This document shows, one piece after another, positions 18,880 through 40,945 of a stretch of DNA of 64,000 nt. The notes beneath the pieces were generated by a model, which saw nothing but the letters and a program-made list of their open reading frames with translations, was not told the origin of the DNA and made no database searches. Position numbers and translations under genes: made by a program. This stretch comes from Rhizobium sp. ASV8 (GTDB taxonomy: Bacteria; Pseudomonadota; Alphaproteobacteria; Rhizobiales; Rhizobiaceae), in the NCBI RefSeq assembly GCF_016429255.1, contig NZ_JAELUG010000001.1:186001-250000 (forward strand). Reading direction: 5' to 3'. Position 1 is the first letter of the stretch. The number at the start of each line of letters is the position of its first letter.

Positions 18880-19001
18880 GCGCAGCAACGACACGCTTCC
18901 CGCATAGTTGGACTGCTCATGTCGAGCCATCAGGCAAGGCTCGCATCAACTATTGCGTGTCGATTTCGCGGTGCAAACAACGGTGATGAAATTTCCATCG
19001 T

Positions 19002-19017
19002 TCAGGTTAATGTCAGG
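19002..19017 (+). promoter_or_regulatory. 11-base-period direct repeat upstream of the eptA-like gene
   Basis: TCAGG occurs at 19002-19006 and 19013-19017, exactly one helical turn (11 bases) apart, about 80 bases before the phosphoethanolamine transferase start. OmpR/PhoB-type response regulators bind such half-site pairs, and eptA genes elsewhere are under PmrA/PhoP control. The role here is inference. Confidence 0.3.
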
Positions 19018-19095
19018 AATGGTCGCCAAGGTCGTCCGCTTTCGCAATCAAAGCTGCGCCCTGCGGTAAGGGTTTTCCGGCTCGATCTACCGGAT

Positions 19096-20775
19096 ATGCC
19101 TCGGAGAAAACCATTGAACGACGACAAGACCTCATCTGGCCGACGCCTCGTCAGGCCAGCCATCGGCAGCGTCACATTATGTCTTCTGGTCACCCTTTAT
19201 GTGCTTCTTGTGACAAACCGGATGTTCTGGACGAAGTCTTCCGACTATTTCTCCGCCGAACCTGTCGCATTCGCCGCCTTCGTGGCGGGCATCTCGGCCG
19301 GGATCATGGGGCTGTTCACCCTTTTCTCCGCCAAATACGTCACCAAGCCCGTCTTGATCTTCTTCGTTCTCGTGGCATCGGTATGCTCCTGGTTCAACGA
19401 CCAGTTCGGCGTGATCATCGATAAGGAAATGATCCGCAATGCGGCGGTATCGACGGGTGCGGAAGCTGGACACCTGATCACCGCGCGCTTCGCAACGCAT
19501 GTATTGTTGACCGGTGTTCTCCCCTCGCTGCTGATCGTTTGGGTGCGGCTCATCCACCGTCCAATTCTGAAGAAACTCGCCTATAACACCGCCGTCATTC
19601 TTGCCTGCTCCGCGGTCTTCGTCGCTGCCGGCACCACCTTCTACAAGACCTATGCCGGCATTGGCCGCGCCCATCGCGACCTGATGGATACCCTCAATCC
19701 GGTAATTCCGGTTGCAAGTGCCGTGCGTTATGTCATCGATATGCAGCGGAACGCCAACGTTGTCGCCCAGCCCCTCGGAATGGATGCCCGCAAGGTCGGC
19801 GTGGTCGATGGCGGCAAGCCGCGCGTGACGATCATCGTGGCCGGAGAGACGGCCCGCGCGCAGAACTTCTCGCTTGGCGGCTACGACAGGATAACCAATC
19901 CGGAGCTCGCTAAGCGCAATGTCGTGTACTTCCCGAACACCAGCAGCTGCGGGACGGCAACGGCAACATCGATCCCCTGCCTGTTCTCCGTCTATACGCG
20001 CGAACAATACAGCCACCGCAAGGGACTGGAGACGGAAAACCTGCTCGACGTGCTGACCCACGCAAAGGTCGACGTGACCTGGCTGGACAACGACACTGGC
20101 AGCTACGATCTGACGAACCGCGTCTCCTATACCTATCTGCCGCCTTTGGGCGATCCCCGCTTCTGCAAGGATGGCGAATGCAAGGACGAAATCCTTGTCG
20201 ACAAGGTCGATGGCTGGCTGGACAAGGTGAAAGGGGACAGCGTTCTCGTGCTGCATCAGCTAGGCAGCCACGGGCCCGCCTATTATCAGCGTTATCCGGA
20301 GGAGTTCCGCCGCTTCCGTCCGGATTGCCGCTCCAACGATTTCAGCTCCTGCTCGCGGGAGGAAATCACCAATGCCTATGACAATACCATCCTATACACC
20401 GACCACATCGTCTCGATGGTCATCGACAAGCTGAAGCAGCGCTCGAATTCGGTATCCGGCGCCGTGCTCTACTTCTCCGATCACGGCGAATCCCTCGGCG
20501 AAAACGGCATCTATCTGCATGGTGCGCCCTATATCATCGCGCCGGCCCAGCAGACGCAGGTGCCGATGCTGGTGTGGATGGCGGACGATCTGGCAAAGGC
20601 GGCCGGCTACAACATGGCATGCTTGTCCAAACGCGCCGCCGAAGGCCCGAATTCGCACGACAACATCTTTCACAGCGTTCTCGGCATGATGGACATTGCG
20701 ACGAAGGCCTACGATCGCAGCCTGGATGTTTTTGCAGGCTGCCGTTCACCATCGAACAAGCTCGCACTGGATTGA
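19096..20775 (+). CDS. eptA: Lipid A phosphoethanolamine transferase, EptA/MCR family
   Basis: A 559-residue inner-membrane enzyme that transfers phosphoethanolamine from phosphatidylethanolamine, usually to lipid A, lowering negative charge and polymyxin binding. Five N-terminal transmembrane helices (to about residue 185) precede a periplasmic alkaline-phosphatase-like domain. Visible catalytic features: metal-ligand Glu251 in VAGETARAQNFSLGGY, nucleophile Thr287 in SSCGTATA, and FSDHGESLGENGIYLHGAPY near 460-480. Several Cys pairs are placed like the family's disulfides. ATG 19096 was chosen; the frame runs upstream through non-helical sequence. Exact acceptor is inferred from the family. 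Confidence 0.9.
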   Translation: MPRRKPLNDDKTSSGRRLVRPAIGSVTLCLLVTLYVLLVTNRMFWTKSSDYFSAEPVAFAAFVAGISAGIMGLFTLFSAKYVTKPVLIFFVLVASVCSWFNDQFGVIIDKEMIRNAAVSTGAEAGHLITARFATHVLLTGVLPSLLIVWVRLIHRPILKKLAYNTAVILACSAVFVAAGTTFYKTYAGIGRAHRDLMDTLNPVIPVASAVRYVIDMQRNANVVAQPLGMDARKVGVVDGGKPRVTIIVAGETARAQNFSLGGYDRITNPELAKRNVVYFPNTSSCGTATATSIPCLFSVYTREQYSHRKGLETENLLDVLTHAKVDVTWLDNDTGSYDLTNRVSYTYLPPLGDPRFCKDGECKDEILVDKVDGWLDKVKGDSVLVLHQLGSHGPAYYQRYPEEFRRFRPDCRSNDFSSCSREEITNAYDNTILYTDHIVSMVIDKLKQRSNSVSGAVLYFSDHGESLGENGIYLHGAPYIIAPAQQTQVPMLVWMADDLAKAAGYNMACLSKRAAEGPNSHDNIFHSVLGMMDIATKAYDRSLDVFAGCRSPSNKLALD

Positions 20776-30993: not shown

Positions 30994-31989
30994 ATGACAT
31001 TTCAAAGCAGTTCGCGTCTTTACGCTGCTGTTTCAGCCCTTCTATGGCCGGCGATCTTCTGCGGTGGTTTGGTTGGTGCTTATTTCGCCTTCGAATCGAA
31101 CATGCATCTCCTCTGGTTCAATGTCACCTATCTCTCGACTGTTGCGGTGATTGCGCTTTTCGAGCGGCTGATGCCCTACGAGAAAACCTGGCAGAAACGC
31201 GATGGCGAAACCTTCAACGATATCGCCCATACACTGCTGAGCAAGGGCGGCGTACAGATCGCCGCCGCCATCGGCACGTCCTTCCCCATGGCCGTGGCGA
31301 CCGTAGCGCAGCCGGTGCTGAGCTATCACTCCCGCTTCTGGCCGGACCAGTGGCCGATGATCTTCCAGGTGGCGCTTGGCCTCGTCATCGCCGAATTCGG
31401 CCTCTATATGGCGCACCGCCTCGCCCATGAGCATTTGTCGCTTTGGCGCTTCCATGCACTGCATCACAGCGTCGAGCGCCTGTGGGTCATCAACACCGGC
31501 CGCTTCCATATCATCGATTCGCTGTTCAAGATCGCGCTCAGTCAGATTCCGCTCTATCTGCTCGGCGCACCGCTGCCTGTTTTCCTGTGGATCGGCGCCG
31601 TGACGGCGACAATTGGCCTGCTCACCCACTGCAATGTCGATATGCGCACAGGCCCGCTCGACTGGATATTCTCGACGCCGCGCCTGCATCGCTGGCATCA
31701 TTCCAAGCTGCTTGCCGAAGGCAATACCAATTACGGTGAAAATCTTGTGATCTGGGATCAGCTTCTCGGCACGTTCTACAATCCGCCGCGCCCCTCCTCC
31801 ACGGATATCGGCATCACCGGCAAGGTCGCCAAGGGCTTCCTTGCGCAGATCACCCAGCCCTTCTCCAAGAAAGGCCGCAAGGAGATCATCGGTAAAAAGC
31901 CGAAGGAGCTTATCCTCAAAGAGGAGCAGGCAGCAAAGGCCGCTGCCGCCACACGGCGGAGCGAACCGCCGATTCGTAAAACCAGCTAG
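30994..31989 (+). CDS. Sterol desaturase/fatty acid hydroxylase family protein
   Basis: A 331-residue integral-membrane di-iron enzyme. Helices around residues 10-60, 85-105 and 125-150 frame the histidine boxes HRLAHE, HALHHS and HRWHHSKL (plus LTHCNVD), which bind two irons. Family members hydroxylate or desaturate lipids such as sterols, ornithine lipids and fatty acids. The basic C-terminal tail is cytoplasmic. Sterol substrates are unlikely in this kind of bacterium, so a membrane lipid is more probable. Confidence 0.9.
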   Translation: MTFQSSSRLYAAVSALLWPAIFCGGLVGAYFAFESNMHLLWFNVTYLSTVAVIALFERLMPYEKTWQKRDGETFNDIAHTLLSKGGVQIAAAIGTSFPMAVATVAQPVLSYHSRFWPDQWPMIFQVALGLVIAEFGLYMAHRLAHEHLSLWRFHALHHSVERLWVINTGRFHIIDSLFKIALSQIPLYLLGAPLPVFLWIGAVTATIGLLTHCNVDMRTGPLDWIFSTPRLHRWHHSKLLAEGNTNYGENLVIWDQLLGTFYNPPRPSSTDIGITGKVAKGFLAQITQPFSKKGRKEIIGKKPKELILKEEQAAKAAAATRRSEPPIRKTS

Positions 31990-32212: not shown

Positions 32213-35200
32213 ATGGAAGGGAGGTTCAGCAGAGAATACCTCAAGCAACTTCATAGAATATTTTATATTTCTAGAGAGATAGACCGCCTTGAGCGAGAAT
32301 TCATTAAGCAAGGCATAGCACATTTTCATGTGTCGGGCGCCGGGCATGAGTCGACGGCGCTGCTCAACGAGTTCCTCCAGGAAGACGACTGGCTGCATCT
32401 TCATTATCGCGACAAAGCCTTGATGCTGGCGCGCGGCATGCCAATTCGCGAGTTTTTCTCCAGTCTTCTCGCCACCGCCAATTCCCATTCCGCCGGCCGG
32501 CAGATGAGCGCGCATCTTTCTTCCCGCGCTCTCAACATCACCTCGATCGTCGGTCCCGTCGGCAACAATGCATTGCACGCAGCCGGTGTCGGCGCGGCGC
32601 TGAAAAACAGGCCCGGCAAGCCGATCGCCATCTGTTGCGTCGGCGACGGAACGACACAGCAGGGCGAATTCGTCGAGGCCGTGGCCGAAGCGGTACGCAG
32701 CCAATCCCCTGTCGTCTTCGTCATTGAAGACAATAGCTTCTCGATCTCGACCCGGACGAGCAAGCAGACCTTCTTCGACCTGCCCGGCGGTCCTGCTTCC
32801 TCTTTCTACGGCATCGATATCATTCGCACCGACGGGGACGATCTGACGACCTCGCGGGAGGCCTTCAGCAAAGCCGTTCGCCAAAGCCGCGAAAGCCGCA
32901 CGCCTAGCATCGTGCTTCTCAACGTCGAACGCTTGTCAGACCACACGAATGCCGACGATCAGAAGACCTATCGCACGACGTTGGAAATTGAGACGAGCTC
33001 CTCTCGCGATCCACTGCCCAACCTGCGCGCGCTGCTCAAAAATGCCGGCATCGATACCAATGAGCTAGAGGCGATCGAGCAGGAACTGACGATCGAGGTA
33101 CAGGCGGAAGCCGCTCTTGCTCGCAAGGAAGATGCCCCGAAGGTCGAACCGGAAGCAAAGGTTCCCTACCCCGCATCCTTCGGCAAGGCGACGGAATATC
33201 GCGGCAACGAACGCGAAGCGACGTTGACGATGCGTGAGGCGCTGAACGATGTGTTGGAGCGTCAGCTTGCCGCCAATCCGGATGTCGTGCTGTTCGGTCA
33301 GGACATCGAAGATCCGAAGGGCGACGTCTTCGGCGTGACCCGTGGTCTCAGCACCAAATATCCCGACCGCGTGCGCAACGCGGCGCTGACCGAATCCACG
33401 ATCGTCGGCACCGCCGTCGGTCGTGCGCTTGCCGGACAGCGTCCCGTCGCATTCCTGCAATTCGCCGATTTCCTGCCGCTTGCCTATAACCAGATCGTCT
33501 CGGAAATGGGCAGCATGTTCTGGCGCACCAATGGCGCCTGGGAATCTCCAGTCATCCTGATGGTCAGCTGCGGCGGCTACAAGCCGGGCCTCGGCCCCTT
33601 CCATGCCCAGAGCTTCGAGGGCATGCTCGCCCATACGCCCGGCATCGACGTCGTCATGCCATCGAGCGCCGGCGATGCGGCCGGTCTGCTCAATGCAGCC
33701 TTTCAATCGCGGCGCCCCACCGTCTTCCTTTATCCCAAGGCGGTGCTCAACAATTCGGACGGCCGCACTTCGCCCGACCTCGACAAGCATTTCGTCCATC
33801 CCGGGCTGTCGCGCCACGTGGCCCGTGGCCGTGACCTGACGTTGGTCAGCTATGGCAACACGGTGTCCTTGTGCGCGAATGCAGCCAAGGCGTTCGAAGC
33901 CCAGGGCTTTTCCGTCGAGGTGATCGATCTTCGCTCGATCTCCCCCTGGGACGAAAAGGAAGTCCTGGCGAGCGCCAGGCGCACACGCCGCCTCATCGTC
34001 GTCCACGAAGACAACCGCACAGTCGGCATGGGGGCGGAAATCGTCGCCACGGTTACCGAGAAGACAGATGTGCCTGTCGTCGTGCGCAGACTTGCGCGGT
34101 CCGATGCCCACGTCCCCTTCAACTTCCGCAATCAGCTCGAGACCCTGCCGTCCTACAGCAAGCTTGTGGATTTGATGGCAGAAGTCCTCGAATGCGAAGT
34201 GACCTGGCACGAAGAGGACGACAGCGGCCCGACTGCTGCCATCAAGGCGATCGGCTCCGGCCCCGCCGACGAGAACGTGTTGATCACCGATCTGTTGGTC
34301 AAGCCTGGCGACACGATCGAAGTCGGCCAGCTCGTTGCCGTTGTCGAGGCCACCAAGGCTTCGGTTGAGATCTGCGCCAATATCGGCGGCGTCGTACAGG
34401 AAGTATTCGCCAGGGTCGGCGACCAGATCGCCACCGACAGCCCCCTCCTGACAGTCGATGCCAATCGCGAGAGCAGCGAGCGGAACTTCGCGCTCGCCTC
34501 GGAAATACAGAACAAATTCGTCCTGCGTCGCCTGAAATCACATTCCATTCCGACATTGCGCCGTCATTCCGGCAGCTTCTCGGAGATCGCTGTCAGCGGC
34601 ATTGGTTATGCGACGGGCGGTCGCCGGGTCGCCAACGACGACATCATCCATCATTGGCCGAACCGGCGCGCGGACGAGATCTTTGCCCTGACCGGCATCA
34701 AGAGCCGCTATTGGGTAGCTCCGGGCGAAGGCACGCTCAGCCTTGCGACCAAAGCCGTGCAAGATCTGTTGCGCCAGACCCAGATGACGATCCACGACAT
34801 TGATCTGGTCATCGCCGCGACTGGAACGCCTGATATCGCCACCCCATCGCTCGCAAGCCGCGTTGCCGTTGCAGTCGCCGAAGACGGCGTGCGGCCCTCG
34901 CTTGCCGCCTATGACATGGGCGCCGCCTGCTCCGGCTATCTCTACGCGCTGCAGCAAGCTCATGATTTCATTGCGCAACAGAATGACGCCAAGGTGCTGA
35001 TCGTCACCTCCGAAGTCCTGTCGCCGCTGCTTGATATGAAGGATTTCTCCACCGCCATCCTGTTCGGCGACGCCGCCACCGCAAGCCTGGTGACGACCCG
35101 CGAGATGGCGCGCAACCCGATATTCACGGCCAGCCGCCCCACCATCAGTGGCCGGCCGGAGCCGGGCGATCTTCTCTATGTGCCGCTGCCTGATGACGGC

Positions 35201-35536
35201 GTCATTGCCATGAATGGCCGTACCGTTTTCACCGAGGCGGTCCATTCCATGTCCCGCTCGATTGAAGACGCCTGCGTCGATGCCGGTATCGAACTTGCCA
35301 ATCTCGATCTGCTGGTGCCTCACCAGGCCAATCAGCGCATTATCGACACCATCGCCAAGCGCAGCGGTCGCCCCGCCCTGAGCGTCATCGAGAATTATGG
35401 CAATACCAGCTCCTCGAGCATTCCGCTCGCCATGATGCATGTTGTCAACGAGCGGTCCGAGCCGCTCAATCTAGGCCTCGTCGCCTTTGGCGGCGGCATG
35501 ACTTCGGGCGCGGCCATCGTTCGCACCATAAAATAG
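32213..35536 (+). CDS. Fused 2-oxoacid dehydrogenase E1-alpha/E1-beta, lipoyl domain and ketoacyl synthase III
   Basis: A single 1107-residue polypeptide. Residues 5-260: E1-alpha-like thiamine-diphosphate domain (GDG at 144-146 to N174, HVSGAGHES at 39-47). Residues 335-660: E1-beta (ALTESTIVGTAVGRAL, FLQFADFLPLAYNQIVSE, GPFHAQSFEGMLAHTPG). Residues 675-752: lipoyl/biotinyl domain with lipoyl-lysine candidate K715 in VEATKAS. Residues 785-1107: FabH-type ketoacyl synthase III with C906 (GAACSGYLYAL), H1037 (VPHQANQR) and N1064 (NYGNTSSSS) all present. No E2 acyltransferase or E3 is present in the protein or next to it. I infer oxidative decarboxylation of a 2-oxoacid to an acyl-lipoyl group that feeds the condensing domain. 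Product unknown. Confidence 0.92.
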   Translation: MEGRFSREYLKQLHRIFYISREIDRLEREFIKQGIAHFHVSGAGHESTALLNEFLQEDDWLHLHYRDKALMLARGMPIREFFSSLLATANSHSAGRQMSAHLSSRALNITSIVGPVGNNALHAAGVGAALKNRPGKPIAICCVGDGTTQQGEFVEAVAEAVRSQSPVVFVIEDNSFSISTRTSKQTFFDLPGGPASSFYGIDIIRTDGDDLTTSREAFSKAVRQSRESRTPSIVLLNVERLSDHTNADDQKTYRTTLEIETSSSRDPLPNLRALLKNAGIDTNELEAIEQELTIEVQAEAALARKEDAPKVEPEAKVPYPASFGKATEYRGNEREATLTMREALNDVLERQLAANPDVVLFGQDIEDPKGDVFGVTRGLSTKYPDRVRNAALTESTIVGTAVGRALAGQRPVAFLQFADFLPLAYNQIVSEMGSMFWRTNGAWESPVILMVSCGGYKPGLGPFHAQSFEGMLAHTPGIDVVMPSSAGDAAGLLNAAFQSRRPTVFLYPKAVLNNSDGRTSPDLDKHFVHPGLSRHVARGRDLTLVSYGNTVSLCANAAKAFEAQGFSVEVIDLRSISPWDEKEVLASARRTRRLIVVHEDNRTVGMGAEIVATVTEKTDVPVVVRRLARSDAHVPFNFRNQLETLPSYSKLVDLMAEVLECEVTWHEEDDSGPTAAIKAIGSGPADENVLITDLLVKPGDTIEVGQLVAVVEATKASVEICANIGGVVQEVFARVGDQIATDSPLLTVDANRESSERNFALASEIQNKFVLRRLKSHSIPTLRRHSGSFSEIAVSGIGYATGGRRVANDDIIHHWPNRRADEIFALTGIKSRYWVAPGEGTLSLATKAVQDLLRQTQMTIHDIDLVIAATGTPDIATPSLASRVAVAVAEDGVRPSLAAYDMGAACSGYLYALQQAHDFIAQQNDAKVLIVTSEVLSPLLDMKDFSTAILFGDAATASLVTTREMARNPIFTASRPTISGRPEPGDLLYVPLPDDGVIAMNGRTVFTEAVHSMSRSIEDACVDAGIELANLDLLVPHQANQRIIDTIAKRSGRPALSVIENYGNTSSSSIPLAMMHVVNERSEPLNLGLVAFGGGMTSGAAIVRTIK

Positions 35537-35785
35537 CCGGTTCTCCGACTTCGCTTCGGCAAATATGCTTCGCGTCCTGACCGGGCGCGGGGCAACGGCC
35601 AGACATGGCCGCGTTCTGAGGGAAATTCCACGAAAGCGCGAACGCCAGCCCGGCGGCGATCCCCCATAGCGGGCGCGAAGCATCAAGTTTTTGCAACTTA
35701 TACGGTCCATCCTTCATTACAATTCATTCATGTTTGCAGATGCAGGCTCTTGAAAAGCACTCGAGCGGTGCTTTACTTGAGGTGC

Positions 35786-36931
35786 ATGGCTAAGACACCC
35801 ACCCCATCGCACGCAACGGACCTGCGATACGAACTCGCTCCCGATGCGCAGGCACGACAGGCGATGGATGAGACCTTCGCCGCATACAGGCAGATGATGA
35901 CGCTGCTGGCAGAGATCGTTCCGGACAGAGCCGGTGCGAACCTCGTCAGGCTGCATGACCTCGCCTATGAGACTATCCGCGAACGCACCGCCTTGCCCGC
36001 GCGCCTCGTGACGCTCGGTCTGCGGGATTTTGCGGCCAGCAGAGGTGAGCTGACGGCCACGAACCGCCTGCCGCTCGATGAAAAACTCTTTGCCATCAAG
36101 GGTCCGTCGGACCTGACAATCTCGACGGTGCGCGGCCGCTTTGCCGTGCCCTTCGATGTGGCCGGTTATTTCAAGGGCTGGGAAAGCGTCTTTCCCGCCT
36201 ATTTGATCGCCGATGACGGCCGCTACGAGATTCACATCGGCGTAACGCCCAACTCCCCCCGAACGGAGGAAAACATCATGACGAATGAAGGCATTCTTTC
36301 CCGCATGGGACGGCTGATCGCCGGCCTCGCCAACACCGCCATTGACAAGGTGGAAGGCGCGAACAAGATCGCAGTCATCGAGCAGGCGCTACGGGAGATC
36401 GATGCAGCCGCAGACGATGCCCGCACCGATCTGGGTAAGGCGCGCGCAGAGGAATATCGCATCCAGAGCCGCCGCACGGAAATCGTCGATGACCTAGCAG
36501 TCCTCGACGAGAAGATCCGGCTTGCCGTCTCCGCCGACCGCGATGACCTCGCCAAAGCCGGTGTTGCCCGCCAGATCGATCTCGAAGCGCAGATCGCGGC
36601 GCTCGACAGGGCGCTCGCGGATGCGCACGAGCAGATTGACGAGGGTCAGAAGGCGCTGCAAGCCATTCTCGCCACACGCCGCGAGGCAGAGGCACGGCTT
36701 ATCGACTTCAAGCGCAGCGTGGCCCGGCACACACCTGAGGAAACGACGGGTGGAAATCCGCGGCCGACGCCGGCAGCCGGCGCCGCTCGCGCCGCATCCG
36801 CCGTCTCTCGCTTGACGGGAGTGCCGTCGGGGGAACCCGCCACCAGCGCCGAGCTCGATGAGCTCGACCGCCTGCACCGGGAGCAGGCCATCGAAGCACG
36901 CCTTGCCCGCTTCAAGGCCAACGGCCAGTAA
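35786..36931 (+). CDS. pspA: PspA/IM30 protein with in-frame TnpB-like N-terminal domain
   Basis: Reads as 381 residues. Residues 11-158 follow the N-terminal (non-nuclease) part of TnpB transposon proteins: LRYELAPDAQARQAMDETF, NLVRLHDLAYETIRE near 52-66, then LFAIKGPSDL and TISTVRGRFAVPFDVAGY at 101-128. No RuvC or zinc-ribbon region exists. Residues 165-381 are PspA/IM30: MGRLIAGLANTAIDKVEG, then a long coiled coil with an Ala/Pro linker. PspA binds stressed inner membrane. ATG 35786 has GAGGTG upstream; an internal ATG at 36278 has a strong GGAGG, so a 217-residue PspA could also be made alone. Followed by yqiJ (3-base gap) and yqiK. Confidence 0.85.
   Translation: MAKTPTPSHATDLRYELAPDAQARQAMDETFAAYRQMMTLLAEIVPDRAGANLVRLHDLAYETIRERTALPARLVTLGLRDFAASRGELTATNRLPLDEKLFAIKGPSDLTISTVRGRFAVPFDVAGYFKGWESVFPAYLIADDGRYEIHIGVTPNSPRTEENIMTNEGILSRMGRLIAGLANTAIDKVEGANKIAVIEQALREIDAAADDARTDLGKARAEEYRIQSRRTEIVDDLAVLDEKIRLAVSADRDDLAKAGVARQIDLEAQIAALDRALADAHEQIDEGQKALQAILATRREAEARLIDFKRSVARHTPEETTGGNPRPTPAAGAARAASAVSRLTGVPSGEPATSAELDELDRLHREQAIEARLARFKANGQ
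36265..36280 (+). promoter_or_regulatory. Internal ribosome-binding site and ATG for stand-alone PspA
   Basis: GGAGG at 36265-36269, eight bases before the in-frame ATG at 36278, falls exactly at the junction between the TnpB-like segment and PspA. It is stronger than the site of the upstream start and suggests either a second translation start or that PspA is the ancestral gene with a domain added upstream. Confidence 0.6.
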
Positions 36932-36934
36932 ACG

Positions 36935-37588
36935 ATGCACCTGTTTCTCGCACCCGAATGTGCGCCTTTTGCCATCGCGGCAATGATCCTGATCGGACTG
37001 ACCGTTGTCGAAATCCTGTCGATGCTGCTCGGCTTCTCGCTGAGCGAACTCATCGGCAAGCCGCATTTCGAAGGCCATGACGGCGTGATCGCCGGCTTGC
37101 TCTCCTGGATCAATATAGGCGGCGTGCCGCTTTTGATCCTGATCATGCTGGTGCTCGGCATCTTCGCCGTGACGGGGTTCGCCATCCAGACAGTTGCCGA
37201 CATGATGTGGACGCCACTGCCAGCGATCATCGCCGCACCGCCGGCCCTGCTCGTCACGATACCCCTCGTCCGGGGTTCGACACGCACGATCGCCAGGATC
37301 GTGCCGCGCGACGAGACCTACGCCGTCGATACCGTCGATTTCGTCGGCCGAACCGGCACGGTTTCCATCGGCCCTCTGGATCAAGGCCTGCCCGGCCGCG
37401 TCAGCGTCAAGGATGCGTACGGCAACTGGCATCAGCTGCGCGCCAGCGCCGCCAAGGGTGAAAACCCCTTACCGATCGGCGCCAAAGTTCTGCTTGTCGA
37501 CCGCAAGGCCGACATCTTCATCGCAGTTTCCGCCCCTTCGGACCTCGTCGGTTCCGATGACCAATCCTCTACGGAGCAACATTCATGA
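36935..37588 (+). CDS. yqiJ: YqiJ-like inner-membrane protein with OB/NfeD-type domain
   Basis: A 217-residue protein. Three to four transmembrane helices (about residues 12-33, 55-90, 95-115) flank cytoplasmic loops, followed by a C-terminal OB-fold-like domain (about 125-205; DFVGRTGTVSIGPLDQG and LPIGAKVLLVDRKADIFI). This is the usual membrane partner of flotillin-like YqiK. It begins three bases after pspA and its stop overlaps the yqiK ATG (37585-37588), so all three are one operon. Confidence 0.85.
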   Translation: MHLFLAPECAPFAIAAMILIGLTVVEILSMLLGFSLSELIGKPHFEGHDGVIAGLLSWINIGGVPLLILIMLVLGIFAVTGFAIQTVADMMWTPLPAIIAAPPALLVTIPLVRGSTRTIARIVPRDETYAVDTVDFVGRTGTVSIGPLDQGLPGRVSVKDAYGNWHQLRASAAKGENPLPIGAKVLLVDRKADIFIAVSAPSDLVGSDDQSSTEQHS

Positions 37589-39303
37589 TTGGCCTTTACG
37601 ACCTTATTCTCCCCGCGGGCATCGGCCTCGTCCTCATCCTCGGGATCGGCTTTGTCCTTGCCTCGCTGTATGTTCGTTCGAGCCGGGATGAAGCTTACGT
37701 CCGAACCGGTCTTGGCGGCCAGAAAGTCGTCCTCGACGGCGGCTCCATCGTGCTGCCGATCTTCCACTCGATCGCCCGCGTCAACCTCAAAACCCTGCGT
37801 CTGGAAGTCCAGCGCGGCGAGAACGATGCGCTGATCACCAAGGACCGTATGCGCGTCGATATCGGTGCGGAATTCTACGTGCGCGTCAAGCCGGATAGCT
37901 CCTCGATCGCGCTTGCCGCGCAGACGCTCGGCAGCCGCACCAACGATAGCGAGCAACTGCGCCAGCTGATCGAGGCGAAATTCGTCGACAGCTTGCGCTC
38001 GGTCGCAGCCACGATGAACCTCGATGCGCTGCAGGAGCAACGCATGGACTTCGTCAAGGCGGTGCAGGATGCGGTCGGTTCCGACCTGCAGTCCAACGGT
38101 CTCGAACTGGAATCCGTATCTCTGACGCGCCTCGACCAGACCGATATCAAGCACTTCAATGCCAACAACTTCTTCGATGCCCACGGTCTTGCCGCGCTGA
38201 CCCGCGTCACGGAAGCTCGCAAGAAGGAGCGTAACGAAGTGGTTCGCGATACCGAAGTCGCGATCGCACAAAAGGACCTTGAAGCTCGCCAACAGTCCCT
38301 CACCATCGAGCGGACGAAGCGCGAAGCCGAGCTGAACCAGCAGCGCGACATTGCCAACAAGTCTGCAGCAACCCGCGCTGAAACCGCACAGCAGGAGCAG
38401 GCAGCCAAGCGCGCGGAAGAAGAAGCCCGCATTGCTGCAGAGCAGGCCATCGCCGAACGCGAAGCCACGGCCAAACAGGTCCGCGAATCCGCCAACATCG
38501 ACTCGACCCGCGCCGTGCAGCAGCGTGAGACGGAAGCCCGCCGCGACAACCAGATCGTCGCGCAGGAAAGCGCCATCGCGGTTGCAAACAAGAGTCGTGA
38601 GGAATCGGAAGCCAAGGCGAAGGCCGAAGCCGCACGCGCCCTCGCCATCGCTGCGGAAGAAAAGGTCGGCACCGCCAAGGCCGTTGAGATCGCAGAACGT
38701 GAAAGACAGATCGCCGTGATCGACGCCCAAAAGCGCGCTCAAACCCAGGCAACCGCCGTCACGATTGCGGCAGAAGCGGAAAAGCAGGCCGCCATCGACC
38801 AGGCGGATGCCATCAAGACGCTGGCAACCGCCGAAGCCGATGCCGCGATCATCAAGGCCAAGGGCATTCTCGAAAACGGTAAGGCGACGGCCGAAAGCGA
38901 AGCCCTGCTCAACGAGGCCCGCAACAAGCTCAGCCCCGCCATTATCGAGTTCGAGATCACCCGCGAGCGCATCCGCATCGTGCCCGCCGCTCTTGCCGAA
39001 GCGGTCAAGCCGATCGAGAAGATCTCGGATATCCGTATCTTCGACACCGGCGGCATGCTCGGCCGCAACGGCAACGGCGCCGCTGGCGGCAGTGGCGTTG
39101 GCCTTGGCGAAGGTCTGGCCGGCCAGCTTCTCTCCTATCAGGCCAACAAACCCATCCTCGACCGCCTGCTCAAAGAAGCCGGTTTCGACGGCGACAATGC
39201 CATCTCGGCACTGCTCGGCAAGCTCGACGGCAAATCTGCTGCGGCCGCACCGGAAGAAGAATACTACGAGGAAGAGGCAGACGACGCGAGCAAGCCTGCC
39301 TGA
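37585..39303 (+). CDS. yqiK: Flotillin-family protein YqiK
   Basis: A 572-residue flotillin/SPFH protein. One N-terminal membrane helix (residues 8-29), SPFH domain (about 35-200; GGQKVVLDGGSIVLPIFHSI, EFYVRVKPDS), a long Ala/Glu/Lys-rich coiled coil (about 215-425) and a C-terminal glycine-rich stretch with an acidic end (EEEYYEEEADDASKPA). Flotillins oligomerise into membrane microdomain scaffolds. ATGA overlap with yqiJ gives translational coupling. Followed by a strong terminator at 39327-39360. Confidence 0.92.
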   Translation: MIGLYDLILPAGIGLVLILGIGFVLASLYVRSSRDEAYVRTGLGGQKVVLDGGSIVLPIFHSIARVNLKTLRLEVQRGENDALITKDRMRVDIGAEFYVRVKPDSSSIALAAQTLGSRTNDSEQLRQLIEAKFVDSLRSVAATMNLDALQEQRMDFVKAVQDAVGSDLQSNGLELESVSLTRLDQTDIKHFNANNFFDAHGLAALTRVTEARKKERNEVVRDTEVAIAQKDLEARQQSLTIERTKREAELNQQRDIANKSAATRAETAQQEQAAKRAEEEARIAAEQAIAEREATAKQVRESANIDSTRAVQQRETEARRDNQIVAQESAIAVANKSREESEAKAKAEAARALAIAAEEKVGTAKAVEIAERERQIAVIDAQKRAQTQATAVTIAAEAEKQAAIDQADAIKTLATAEADAAIIKAKGILENGKATAESEALLNEARNKLSPAIIEFEITRERIRIVPAALAEAVKPIEKISDIRIFDTGGMLGRNGNGAAGGSGVGLGEGLAGQLLSYQANKPILDRLLKEAGFDGDNAISALLGKLDGKSAAAAPEEEYYEEEADDASKPA

Positions 39304-39383: not shown

Positions 39384-40229
39384 TCAGGGCTTCGGGCGGT
39401 TTCTGAACGCCTCTGCTTCGGCGTAGAACTTCTTTTCCCATTCCTTGTGATTGTCGAGGCCTTCCTTGATGAAGGGCGTGAAGATCGCCAGGTTCATCAG
39501 CGCCCAGTTCACGAAGCGAGCCGGGAATTTCAGCGGCTTGACGAAATCGACGAAGAGCACGACGCGGGTCTTGTCCGAATGGTTCCAGGCTTCATGCTCA
39601 TAGGCGTCGTCGAAAATCAGCGCCTTGCCTTCCTGCCAATGGCAAATCTGCTTGTCGACACGGATGGCAAGCTTATCGTTCGGCTCCGGCACGATGAGGC
39701 CGAGATGCAGGCGTAGCACACCATTATAGGGGCCGCGATGCGCGGGAAGATGCTTGCCCGGCTCGAAAATCGAGAACATCGCCGTCGTCAGGCCAGGGAT
39801 CTTCTGCACGGCAGCCCAGGTATTGGGGCACGCCTTGATGTTCTGCTCGGACTTCACGCCGAAACCAAGAAGGAAGAACGTCTTCCAGCGCGTGTCGGTC
39901 GAGATGGTCTTCACATCGGTCGAGATATCCTGGAAAGTCGGCAGCTCGCTCTGGCGCAGCAGCACCTTCTCAAGCTCGGCGCGGATCGCAGGATAATCCT
40001 TCTCGATCTCGGCAGCCCAAGGAAAAGTCTTGGTATCGTAAACAGGCGGATTGCCAAGCTTGGCATATTTGAGATTGAGCCCCTCGGCCCAGGCGACGAT
40101 GCCCATGAAGAAGCGCGTCATGGCGCTCGCGCGCTCCATAGGCGCGATCCCGGCCGTGCCAAAAGTCTGTTCCGGAGTTCGAGATTCGTTGGAAGTGGGA
40201 GCAGGTGCGCTCAAGGGACTCTCCGTCAT
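39384..40229 (-). CDS. Aspartyl/asparaginyl beta-hydroxylase family (LpxO-like lipid A hydroxylase)
   Basis: A 281-residue Fe(II)/2-oxoglutarate dioxygenase. The Asp_Arg_Hydrox domain covers about residues 95-250: iron ligands in HLPAHRGPYNGVLRLHLGL and in FDDAYEHEAWNHSDKTRVVL, with the terminal Arg for 2-oxoglutarate. A hydrophobic stretch before the domain and a C-terminal VNWALMNLAIFTPFI helix suggest membrane association, as in LpxO, which 2-hydroxylates lipid A acyl chains. Start ATG 40229; the frame runs far upstream but that part is not protein-like. Substrate assignment is by family resemblance. Confidence 0.8.
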   Translation of the reverse strand: MTESPLSAPAPTSNESRTPEQTFGTAGIAPMERASAMTRFFMGIVAWAEGLNLKYAKLGNPPVYDTKTFPWAAEIEKDYPAIRAELEKVLLRQSELPTFQDISTDVKTISTDTRWKTFFLLGFGVKSEQNIKACPNTWAAVQKIPGLTTAMFSIFEPGKHLPAHRGPYNGVLRLHLGLIVPEPNDKLAIRVDKQICHWQEGKALIFDDAYEHEAWNHSDKTRVVLFVDFVKPLKFPARFVNWALMNLAIFTPFIKEGLDNHKEWEKKFYAEAEAFRNRPKP

Positions 40230-40528
40230 GTCTGTCTTTAAGGGCTGTCCAGGGAGGAAATCTTCGCCAACGGAATCTGCATGCAAATCCCGAAGAGGCA
40301 ACAGGCTTGAAGCTTGGGATGTCAGCCTGTCCCTTCCCGATTGACACCCGTCTCCTTGTGTTATGCGATGATCACAATAACCGATTATATGAGTTGAATA
40401 GTCGAATTTCGCAAGAGAGTCCGTTCGCAACGAACGGTGGTTCATCCTGGGATGAATCTCCGGCGATTCTCGAGAGGGATTCACCCCAGAATCGGCAAAA
40501 ATGCGGCAAGGTCTACGACCCGCCATCA

Positions 40529-40945
40529 CTATGCGGCTTGAGCCTGAATTATTAGCCGGACAATTGCAAGTCCCGCAATCAGCGCGCAGATCGACAGGAA
40601 AACCGACAGAGCGACATAGGCTGCGGCCGGCATCCATTGCCCGCGTTCCCATAGCACGACGCTCTCCAGCGCAAAGGTTGAAAATGTCGTGAAACCGCCC
40701 AGAACACCTGTCGTCAGGAACAGCCGAACCTCCTGCGACACACCGCCGCGGAAGGCGAAATATTCGGTCAGCAACCCCATCACGAATGCCCCGAGCACAT
40801 TGATGATCAGGGTGCCGAAAGGGAACTCGAGACCGAGCAGACGGTTGGCAACCTCATTGATACCGAGGCGGAAGGCGCCACCAAATCCCGCGCCGAGAAA
40901 CACGATGAGATAGAGCACGACAATCTCCAGTCGTCCTTGCGTCAA
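40529..40945 (-). CDS. crcB: CrcB/FluC fluoride channel
   Basis: A 138-residue four-helix membrane protein forming a dual-topology dimeric fluoride channel. It has GFGGAFRLG near the start, [19 protein letters not shown] in helix 2 and the signature [15 protein letters not shown] in helix 3. The longest frame starts with TTG at 40945, overlapping the upstream clc stop (TTGA). A GTG at 40918 with GGAG six bases upstream is the other candidate start. Second gene of a riboswitch-controlled fluoride operon. Confidence 0.93.

Follow-up and report, generated by a model that had tools for sequence, protein, structure and literature searches.

A fused 2-oxo acid dehydrogenase E1, lipoyl and FabH-like protein of Rhizobium as a candidate chain-starting enzyme

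The DNA analysed is a stretch of 64,000 nucleotides from Rhizobium sp. ASV8 (NCBI RefSeq assembly GCF_016429255.1, contig NZ_JAELUG010000001.1, positions 186,001 to 250,000 of the forward strand), referred to below as the window. The subject of this study is one gene within it, situated at 32213..35536 (+), the frame 1 translation of which comprises 1107 aa with no internal stops. A first-pass annotation, made from the sequence alone, had described this gene as encoding one polypeptide in which the E1-alpha and E1-beta parts of a 2-oxo acid dehydrogenase are joined to a lipoyl domain and a FabH-like β-ketoacyl-acyl carrier protein (ACP) synthase III (KAS III). The open frame and the order of the Pfam matches confirm that the fusion is one real, uninterrupted protein with its domains in the order E1-alpha, E1-beta, lipoyl and KAS III.

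The E1-alpha domain (32264..33145, +; residues 18-311; PF00676 E1_dh, 3.8e-44) contains the thiamine diphosphate (ThDP) motif, running from G144-D145-G146 to N174, as well as H244. It is followed by the E1-beta domain (33221..34138, +), which consists of a pyrimidine-binding part (residues 337-512; PF02779 Transket_pyr, 1.7e-26) and a C-terminal part (residues 535-642; PF02780 Transketolase_C, 6.6e-29), and which includes E394 and H464. The predicted lipoylation site, K715 (34355..34357, +), lies in the motif E712-A-T-K-A of the lipoyl domain (34271..34453, +; residues 687-747; PF00364 Biotin_lipoyl, 1.6e-12); both this lysine and E712 are present in 145/145 aligned fusions. The lipoyl part scored 43.0 and 42.6 bits with two pyruvate dehydrogenase (PDH) E2 models and 29.2 bits with a 2-oxoglutarate dehydrogenase E2 model, while the scores for biotin-carrier models were lower than those for PDH (33.0 and 28.4 bits). 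A linker (34454..34585, +; residues 748-791) then leads to the KAS III domain (34586..35527, +; residues 792-1105), in which ACP_syn_III matches residues 900-971 (1.1e-20) and ACP_syn_III_C residues 1023-1104 (2.3e-19). The KAS nucleophile is C906 (34928..34930, +), and the catalytic histidine and asparagine are H1037 (35321..35323, +) and N1064 (35402..35404, +). In the 145 aligned fusions, the linker is 36-65 aa long (median 43) and is the least conserved part measured.

The catalytic residues named in the first-pass annotation proved to be correct and nearly invariant. Among 121 aligned proteins, including that of the window, G144, G146, N174, K715 and C906 are each found in 121, D145 in 119, H1037 in 118 (two gaps, one S) and N1064 in 119 (two gaps); the E1 histidines H244 and H464 are retained in 145/145 and 144/145 aligned fusions, respectively. 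As had also been claimed, the E2 acyltransferase is missing from the chain: neither the E2 catalytic domain (2-oxoacid_dh, PF00198) nor an E3-binding domain gave a match in it (Pfam; 9 families listed). PF00550 (ACP) and PF00109 (type I ketosynthase, KS) are likewise absent from the Pfam matches of the protein.

An AlphaFold2 model of the fusion, for which 64 of the 121 sequences formed the input alignment, has a mean predicted local distance difference test score (pLDDT) of 88.2 and a predicted template-modelling (TM) score (pTM) of 0.67. The sole run of at least three residues with a pLDDT below 50 is 776-788, in the linker preceding the KAS domain. Foldseek searches with parts of the model matched FabH (2ebd, TM 0.91) and E1-beta (1um9, TM 0.92), both by target length, and the Thermus 2-oxo acid dehydrogenase 1um9 is the best solved match for both E1 halves. 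Two-fold symmetry is common to E1 alpha2beta2 assemblies and KAS III, so the protein would be expected to be a dimer carrying two of each site.

The KAS domain was compared with FabH at the residues that contact coenzyme A (CoA). The published description of FabH (PMC4606726) has the CoA adenine stacked between Trp32 and Arg151, with Arg36 touching the phosphopantetheine. The present counts rest on an alignment to E. coli FabH that comprised 143 of the 145 KAS domains, two of less than 290 aa having been dropped and near-identical sequences retained. It is apparent that W32 and R151 are kept in 0/143 and R36 in 28/143, and that all three are gone in 115/143. The W32 place is occupied by D in 119 and E in 15 of the domains, hence by an acidic residue in 134/143 (E822 in the window protein, 34676..34678, +), the R151 place by F in 125/143 (F945, 35045..35047, +) and the R36 place by L in 105/143 (L826, 34688..34690, +). 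Each of the three residues is present in the FabH of 26/26 host genomes and in 4/4 FabH-like paralogs. The catalytic triad, in FabH numbering C112, H244 and N274, is retained in 143/143, 142/143 and 143/143 fusion domains, and the equivalents of the pantetheine-contact residue N247 and the ACP-contact residue R249 are each retained in 142/143; positions 256/257 are mostly basic. What is new here, as read from the alignment, is that the residues of the CoA-adenine clamp are gone from the KAS domain of the fusion, the triad and the ACP-contact arginine having been kept. A solved Mycobacterium tuberculosis FabH carrying R46A and R161A was among the Foldseek matches of the model, and we take R46 and R161 to be the equivalents of R36 and R151.

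The acyl pocket differs as well. The F87 position is T in 139/143 fusions (T877 in the window protein, 34841..34843, +) versus F in 23/26 FabH sequences, and this replacement suggests a pocket roomier than acetyl requires. The FabH of M. tuberculosis has Thr at this position and accepts long chains. With the FabH model TIGR00747, the fusion KAS domain scored 196.1 bits against a cut-off of 292.1; all of the fusion KAS rows listed fell below it, and each of the host genomes searched (26/26) has a separate FabH above it. The fusion is therefore an additional enzyme, and a role as the housekeeping FabH is ruled out. Among the 120 matches listed for the KAS part (contigs not inspected), no true standalone KAS relative was established, many being pieces with a lipoyl domain, an E1 name or a 'partial' mark.

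Relatives of the E1 half were found in front of polyketide synthase (PKS) proteins. A search of plasmid records gave no place covering 80% of the query; its top five rows were Streptomyces E1 matches with 36-39% identity, and the other 35 listed rows had 29-33%. Two of the five were examined (Streptomyces xanthii and Streptomyces sp. NBC_01294 plasmids; loci L071, 7932-18172, and L072, 7890-17917); in both, a fused E1-alpha-beta gene is followed directly by a gene for a large protein, annotated as a non-ribosomal peptide synthetase (NRPS), which contains lipoyl, E2 catalytic, ACP and KS domains within its first 1000 residues. The same arrangement of E1 and lipoyl-E2-ACP-KS occurs in a Verrucomicrobiota genome that also bears the fusion, on another contig (L148, 1194-6266, -). 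At these three loci, a 2-oxo acid dehydrogenase has apparently become part of the loading region of a PKS. In an E1 tree of 32 rows (26 fusions, the three PKS-associated proteins and three host E1 sequences, the last two sets giving six outgroup rows), the PKS-associated proteins were sister to the fusion E1, with a Shimodaira-Hasegawa-like approximate likelihood ratio test (SH-aLRT) value of 96. Because of this position, the E1 line of the fusion seems to be tied to the feeding of condensing enzymes.

Alphaproteobacteria, Verrucomicrobiota and Planctomycetota all include genomes with the fusion, and the 48 loci bearing it represent the R. tropici group, R. cauense, Devosia, Tabrizicola/Rhodobacter, Verrucomicrobia and one genome of the Pirellulaceae. 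The genome searches scored the best few candidates in each genome, and the counts that follow include the genome on which each search was centred. Within the window's genus, 41 of 148 genomes have the fusion (E <= 1e-200, a threshold at which a contig-split fusion, in genome G003, was missed); in the 40 other than that of the window, the match covers residues 1-1107 in 39 and 11-1103 in one, with no internal stops. At E <= 1e-180, the count was 13/136 genomes for the family to which Devosia insulae belongs (one row covering only 43-835), 25/240 for the phylum that includes a Verrucomicrobia genome (two of the rows being partial), 3/246 for the phylum to which the Pirellulaceae genome belongs (one row covering 13-961) and 1/248 for the Tabrizicola family, the last being the centre genome itself. 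In 23 of the 25 Verrucomicrobiota matches, nearly the whole query, up to residue 1103-1106, is covered in a single open frame. By precomputed Pfam assignments, the best 120 of 2060 protein matches have E1, lipoyl and KAS parts, at identities of 48-91%; single members bear database names such as '2-oxoisovalerate dehydrogenase' or 'beta-ketoacyl-ACP synthase 3'. From these whole-genome counts, the fusion is patchy in occurrence, yet stable as a single gene.

Purifying selection acts on every part of the fusion. Measured against 30/30 Rhizobium-type partners, the median ratio of nonsynonymous to synonymous substitution rates (dN/dS) was 0.085 for E1-alpha, 0.039 for E1-beta, 0.051 for the lipoyl domain, 0.08 for the linker and 0.066 for KAS, and 0.07 for the whole gene. 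The KAS domains of 26 chosen fusions formed one group in a tree with 17 of 30 host FabH and FabH-like proteins, E. coli FabH and six divergent KAS III-like paralogs (SH-aLRT 93, below the mark of 95), and the E1 parts of the same 26 formed one group as well (SH-aLRT 99). The simplest reading of these trees would be that the fusion arose once. The copy in Rhizobium cauense (L046, 10001-13273) is Devosia-like, is 60% identical to that of the window and lacks the adjoining olsE and olsC genes described below, which suggests horizontal transfer of a single gene. In a planctomycete (G421:C22:91137-92198, -), the FabH model aligns to the KAS domain as two separate segments (15-169 and 205-321); this fusion is one open frame of 1214 aa, and its KAS domain may contain an insertion.

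It is considered probable, judging from these sequence features, that the fusion is a chain-starting enzyme that would convert a 2-oxo acid directly to a 3-oxoacyl-ACP, acyl-CoA not being an intermediate. The E1 half would decarboxylate the 2-oxo acid and charge the lipoyl arm of the same protein, at K715, with the acyl group; from the arm, this group would move to Cys906 of the attached KAS III, to be condensed there with malonyl-ACP; and the arm would be reoxidised in trans by the ordinary dihydrolipoamide dehydrogenase (E3) of the cell. We infer lipoylation of K715, the handoff from lipoyl to cysteine, malonyl-ACP as acceptor and the action of E3 in trans; the substrate may, tentatively, be a 2-oxo acid with a short or branched chain. 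A direct handoff had been suggested in the first-pass annotation. It finds support in the lack of an E2 domain match within the chain, in the conserved lipoyl lysine and triad and in the loss of the CoA-adenine clamp, since direct transfer from lipoyl to KAS predicts that loss, and it would be the simplest mechanism employing every part present. As to the wider proposition, a CoA-free start of fatty acid or polyketide synthesis in which the lipoyl arm is the acyl donor to a KAS III of the same chain and replaces both E2 and acyl-CoA, the balance tips slightly in its favour.

The partners of such an enzyme were sought near the gene, the inspection of neighbours for ACPs or reductases having been proposed at the outset. 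No AcpP-like gene was matched in the window and 35 loci (tblastn with E. coli AcpP, 1e-4), nor was FabD in the same loci; FabG was matched in three. Among the window neighbours scanned with Pfam, which are part of the window's genes, there was no E3 gene, and a shared E3 elsewhere would be expected. Given the lack of an AcpP-like gene and the unrelated neighbours, the enzyme probably relies on the cell's general ACP and E3 and, no ACP or reductase being tied to the fusion gene, its product would most likely enter the ordinary fatty acid machinery as an alternative starter. The description of the gene as a self-contained starter-unit module is thus upheld in part: the starter role is favoured by the nearest E1 relatives found, which precede lipoyl-first PKS proteins, but 'self-contained' is too strong, because reoxidation of the dihydrolipoyl arm and malonyl-ACP must be supplied by the host. 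Overall, the earlier interpretation is partly supported, being strengthened as regards the bypass of E2 and the absence of CoA and weakened as regards self-containment and any specific product, whether a branched lipid, a signal or a pigment.

The fusion shares features with several known systems. It resembles the branched-chain 2-oxo acid dehydrogenase (BCKDH) and pyruvate dehydrogenase complexes (E1 alpha2beta2, E2, E3) in its E1 domains, catalytic residues and lipoyl domain with a conserved lysine, and differs in having alpha, beta and lipoyl parts in one chain with no match to an E2 catalytic or E3-binding domain. With FabH it shares the fold, the Cys-His-Asn triad and the ACP-contact arginine; unlike FabH, it falls under the family cut-off, is joined to E1 and lipoyl domains, and has lost the CoA-adenine residues and exchanged F87 for T. 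The lipoyl-E2-ACP-KS systems of Streptomyces and Verrucomicrobiota have in common with it the fused E1-alpha-beta and a lipoyl arm upstream of a condensing domain; in them, the acyl group can pass from lipoyl to E2, ACP and KS, whereas the fusion lacks E2 and ACP, and its condensing domain, a KAS III, belongs to the same polypeptide. In Bacillus, separate BCKDH and FabH enzymes prime branched-chain fatty acids, a route likewise leading from a 2-oxo acid by way of a starter to a 3-oxoacyl-ACP, but with free acyl-CoA and separate enzymes. The known role of lipoyl arms is that of carriers inside oxidative complexes, and acyl-CoA is the known donor for KAS III enzymes of the FabH type. If the proposal is true, the breakdown of 2-oxo acids would be joined in one step to the initiation of lipid or polyketide synthesis, the lipoyl arm would join the acyl carriers that serve chain initiation as a new one, and the gene would represent a compact one-gene module for unusual starters. 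No description of an E1-lipoyl-KAS III architecture was found among the papers listed by searches of the open-access literature aimed at it, a result that leaves subscription papers and preprints outside its scope and is no proof of absence.

Several observations weigh against this proposal. The PKS relatives retain an E2 domain between lipoyl and ACP, and a precedent for direct transfer from lipoyl to KS was not found; the E1 tree that links them to the fusion has long branches (the three host outgroups) and few outgroups. Loss of the clamp argues against FabH-like use of acyl-CoA, but it does not, of course, prove a lipoyl donor, and by itself it is no pointer to one, because parts of the clamp have also been lost by the six more divergent KAS III-like paralogs, which have W32 in two, R36 in none and R151 in three. 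R36 survives in some of the fusions, as mentioned above. At the K214 position, an ACP contact of FabH, K or R is found in about 10/143 fusions, most having A, T or S, as compared with K/R in 26/26 FabH sequences. Finally, no conserved partner genes, operon or biosynthetic cluster were found around the fusion at the loci compared across clades.

The alternative that fares best is that E1 and lipoyl load the arm as usual, that a separate cellular E2 moves the acyl group to CoA, and that the KAS domain is merely tethered and is fed by acyl-ACP or another donor. In alphaproteobacteria, the PDH E1-beta subunit does bear a lipoyl domain, and its E2 partner is a separate protein; an NCBIfam model for a PDH E1-beta, PRK11892, aligns to the fusion, albeit well under its cut-off (190 versus 454 bits). 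The host genome has other E1-like matches, and loss of the CoA clamp would fit an acyl-ACP donor equally well. The same parts are, on the other hand, kept in one gene across phyla, and with an external E2 the tether of the KAS domain would presumably have no purpose; this alternative is regarded as rather unlikely. It is more doubtful still that the KAS domain continues to take acyl-CoA by way of a rebuilt CoA site, the E1-lipoyl half only raising the local acyl-CoA concentration through an external E2. FabH uses acyl-CoA, the pantetheine-contact asparagine and, in a minority of fusions, R36 are kept, and W32 or R151 is also missing from some of the divergent KAS III-like paralogs; but in the fusions W32 and R151 have disappeared without exception in favour of mainly acidic and aromatic residues, respectively, while the FabH of the same hosts retains both.

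Directly upstream of the fusion, by 223 bp and on the same strand, lies olsE, encoding an ornithine lipid hydroxylase (30994..31989, +; NCBIfam NF052566, 564.2 bits versus a cut-off of 475), and downstream lies olsC, encoding an ornithine lipid acyl 2-hydroxylase (39384..40652, -; NF052565, 533.8 bits versus 450). Between the fusion and olsC (35750-39303) are PspA/IM30-like, YqiJ-like and flotillin genes. In the Rhizobium-type loci, olsE is upstream in 31/32 (the matches lying 225-377 bp apart in 29 of them and 1.1 kb apart in the other two), olsC is downstream in 29/32, and a flotillin gene is present in 18/32 and was not found in the rest. An olsE match was obtained in 89 of the 148 genus genomes, comprising all 41 with the fusion and 48 of the 107 without it; this co-occurrence is weak evidence, because the fusion genomes belong mostly to one clade. 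The genome of the window has a second match to the OlsE family above the cut-off (G000:C1192:36969-37844, -), and several of its relatives also have two.

The ornithine lipid genes bear on a further alternative, namely that the acyl group goes elsewhere than to malonyl-ACP, the KAS domain acting as an acyltransferase or joining two acyl groups to give an ester, an amide or a ketone, which in Rhizobium might be part of an ornithine lipid. Their proximity and co-occurrence favour it. Against it, the triad asparagine is invariant, as in FabH; the olsE and olsC families are confined to the tropici-type loci (in a clustering of the neighbours called at the window and at 18 loci) and are absent beside the R. 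cauense copy; and the gap of 223 bp and the restriction to a single clade make the linkage weak evidence. This alternative is judged very improbable. That the fusion is an artefact of misassembly or frameshift, both of which the first-pass annotation had named as grounds for refutation, or of chimera formation or decay can be rejected with near certainty: the window's assembly is fragmented (1562 contigs), but the 39 full-length, stop-free fusions of the genus come from independent assemblies, named records exist in several phyla, and dN/dS is low.

Elsewhere the neighbours, chosen ones of which were scanned with Pfam, vary between clades, and the neighbourhood was accordingly dropped as a guide to the product. 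In Devosia, the fusion is accompanied by AhpC-like and M23 peptidase genes, and in Tabrizicola by a divergent FabI-like gene followed by genes for DUF3141, Pta and AckA. No neighbour family was present in more than seven of 23 verrucomicrobial and planctomycete loci. In two Verrucomicrobia (L050, 9917-14635, and L051, 9914-14669), an LL-diaminopimelate aminotransferase-type gene is situated 3 bp and 85 bp downstream of the fusion. The window also contains, at 18919-20775, a gene for an EptA/EptB-type phosphoethanolamine transferase.

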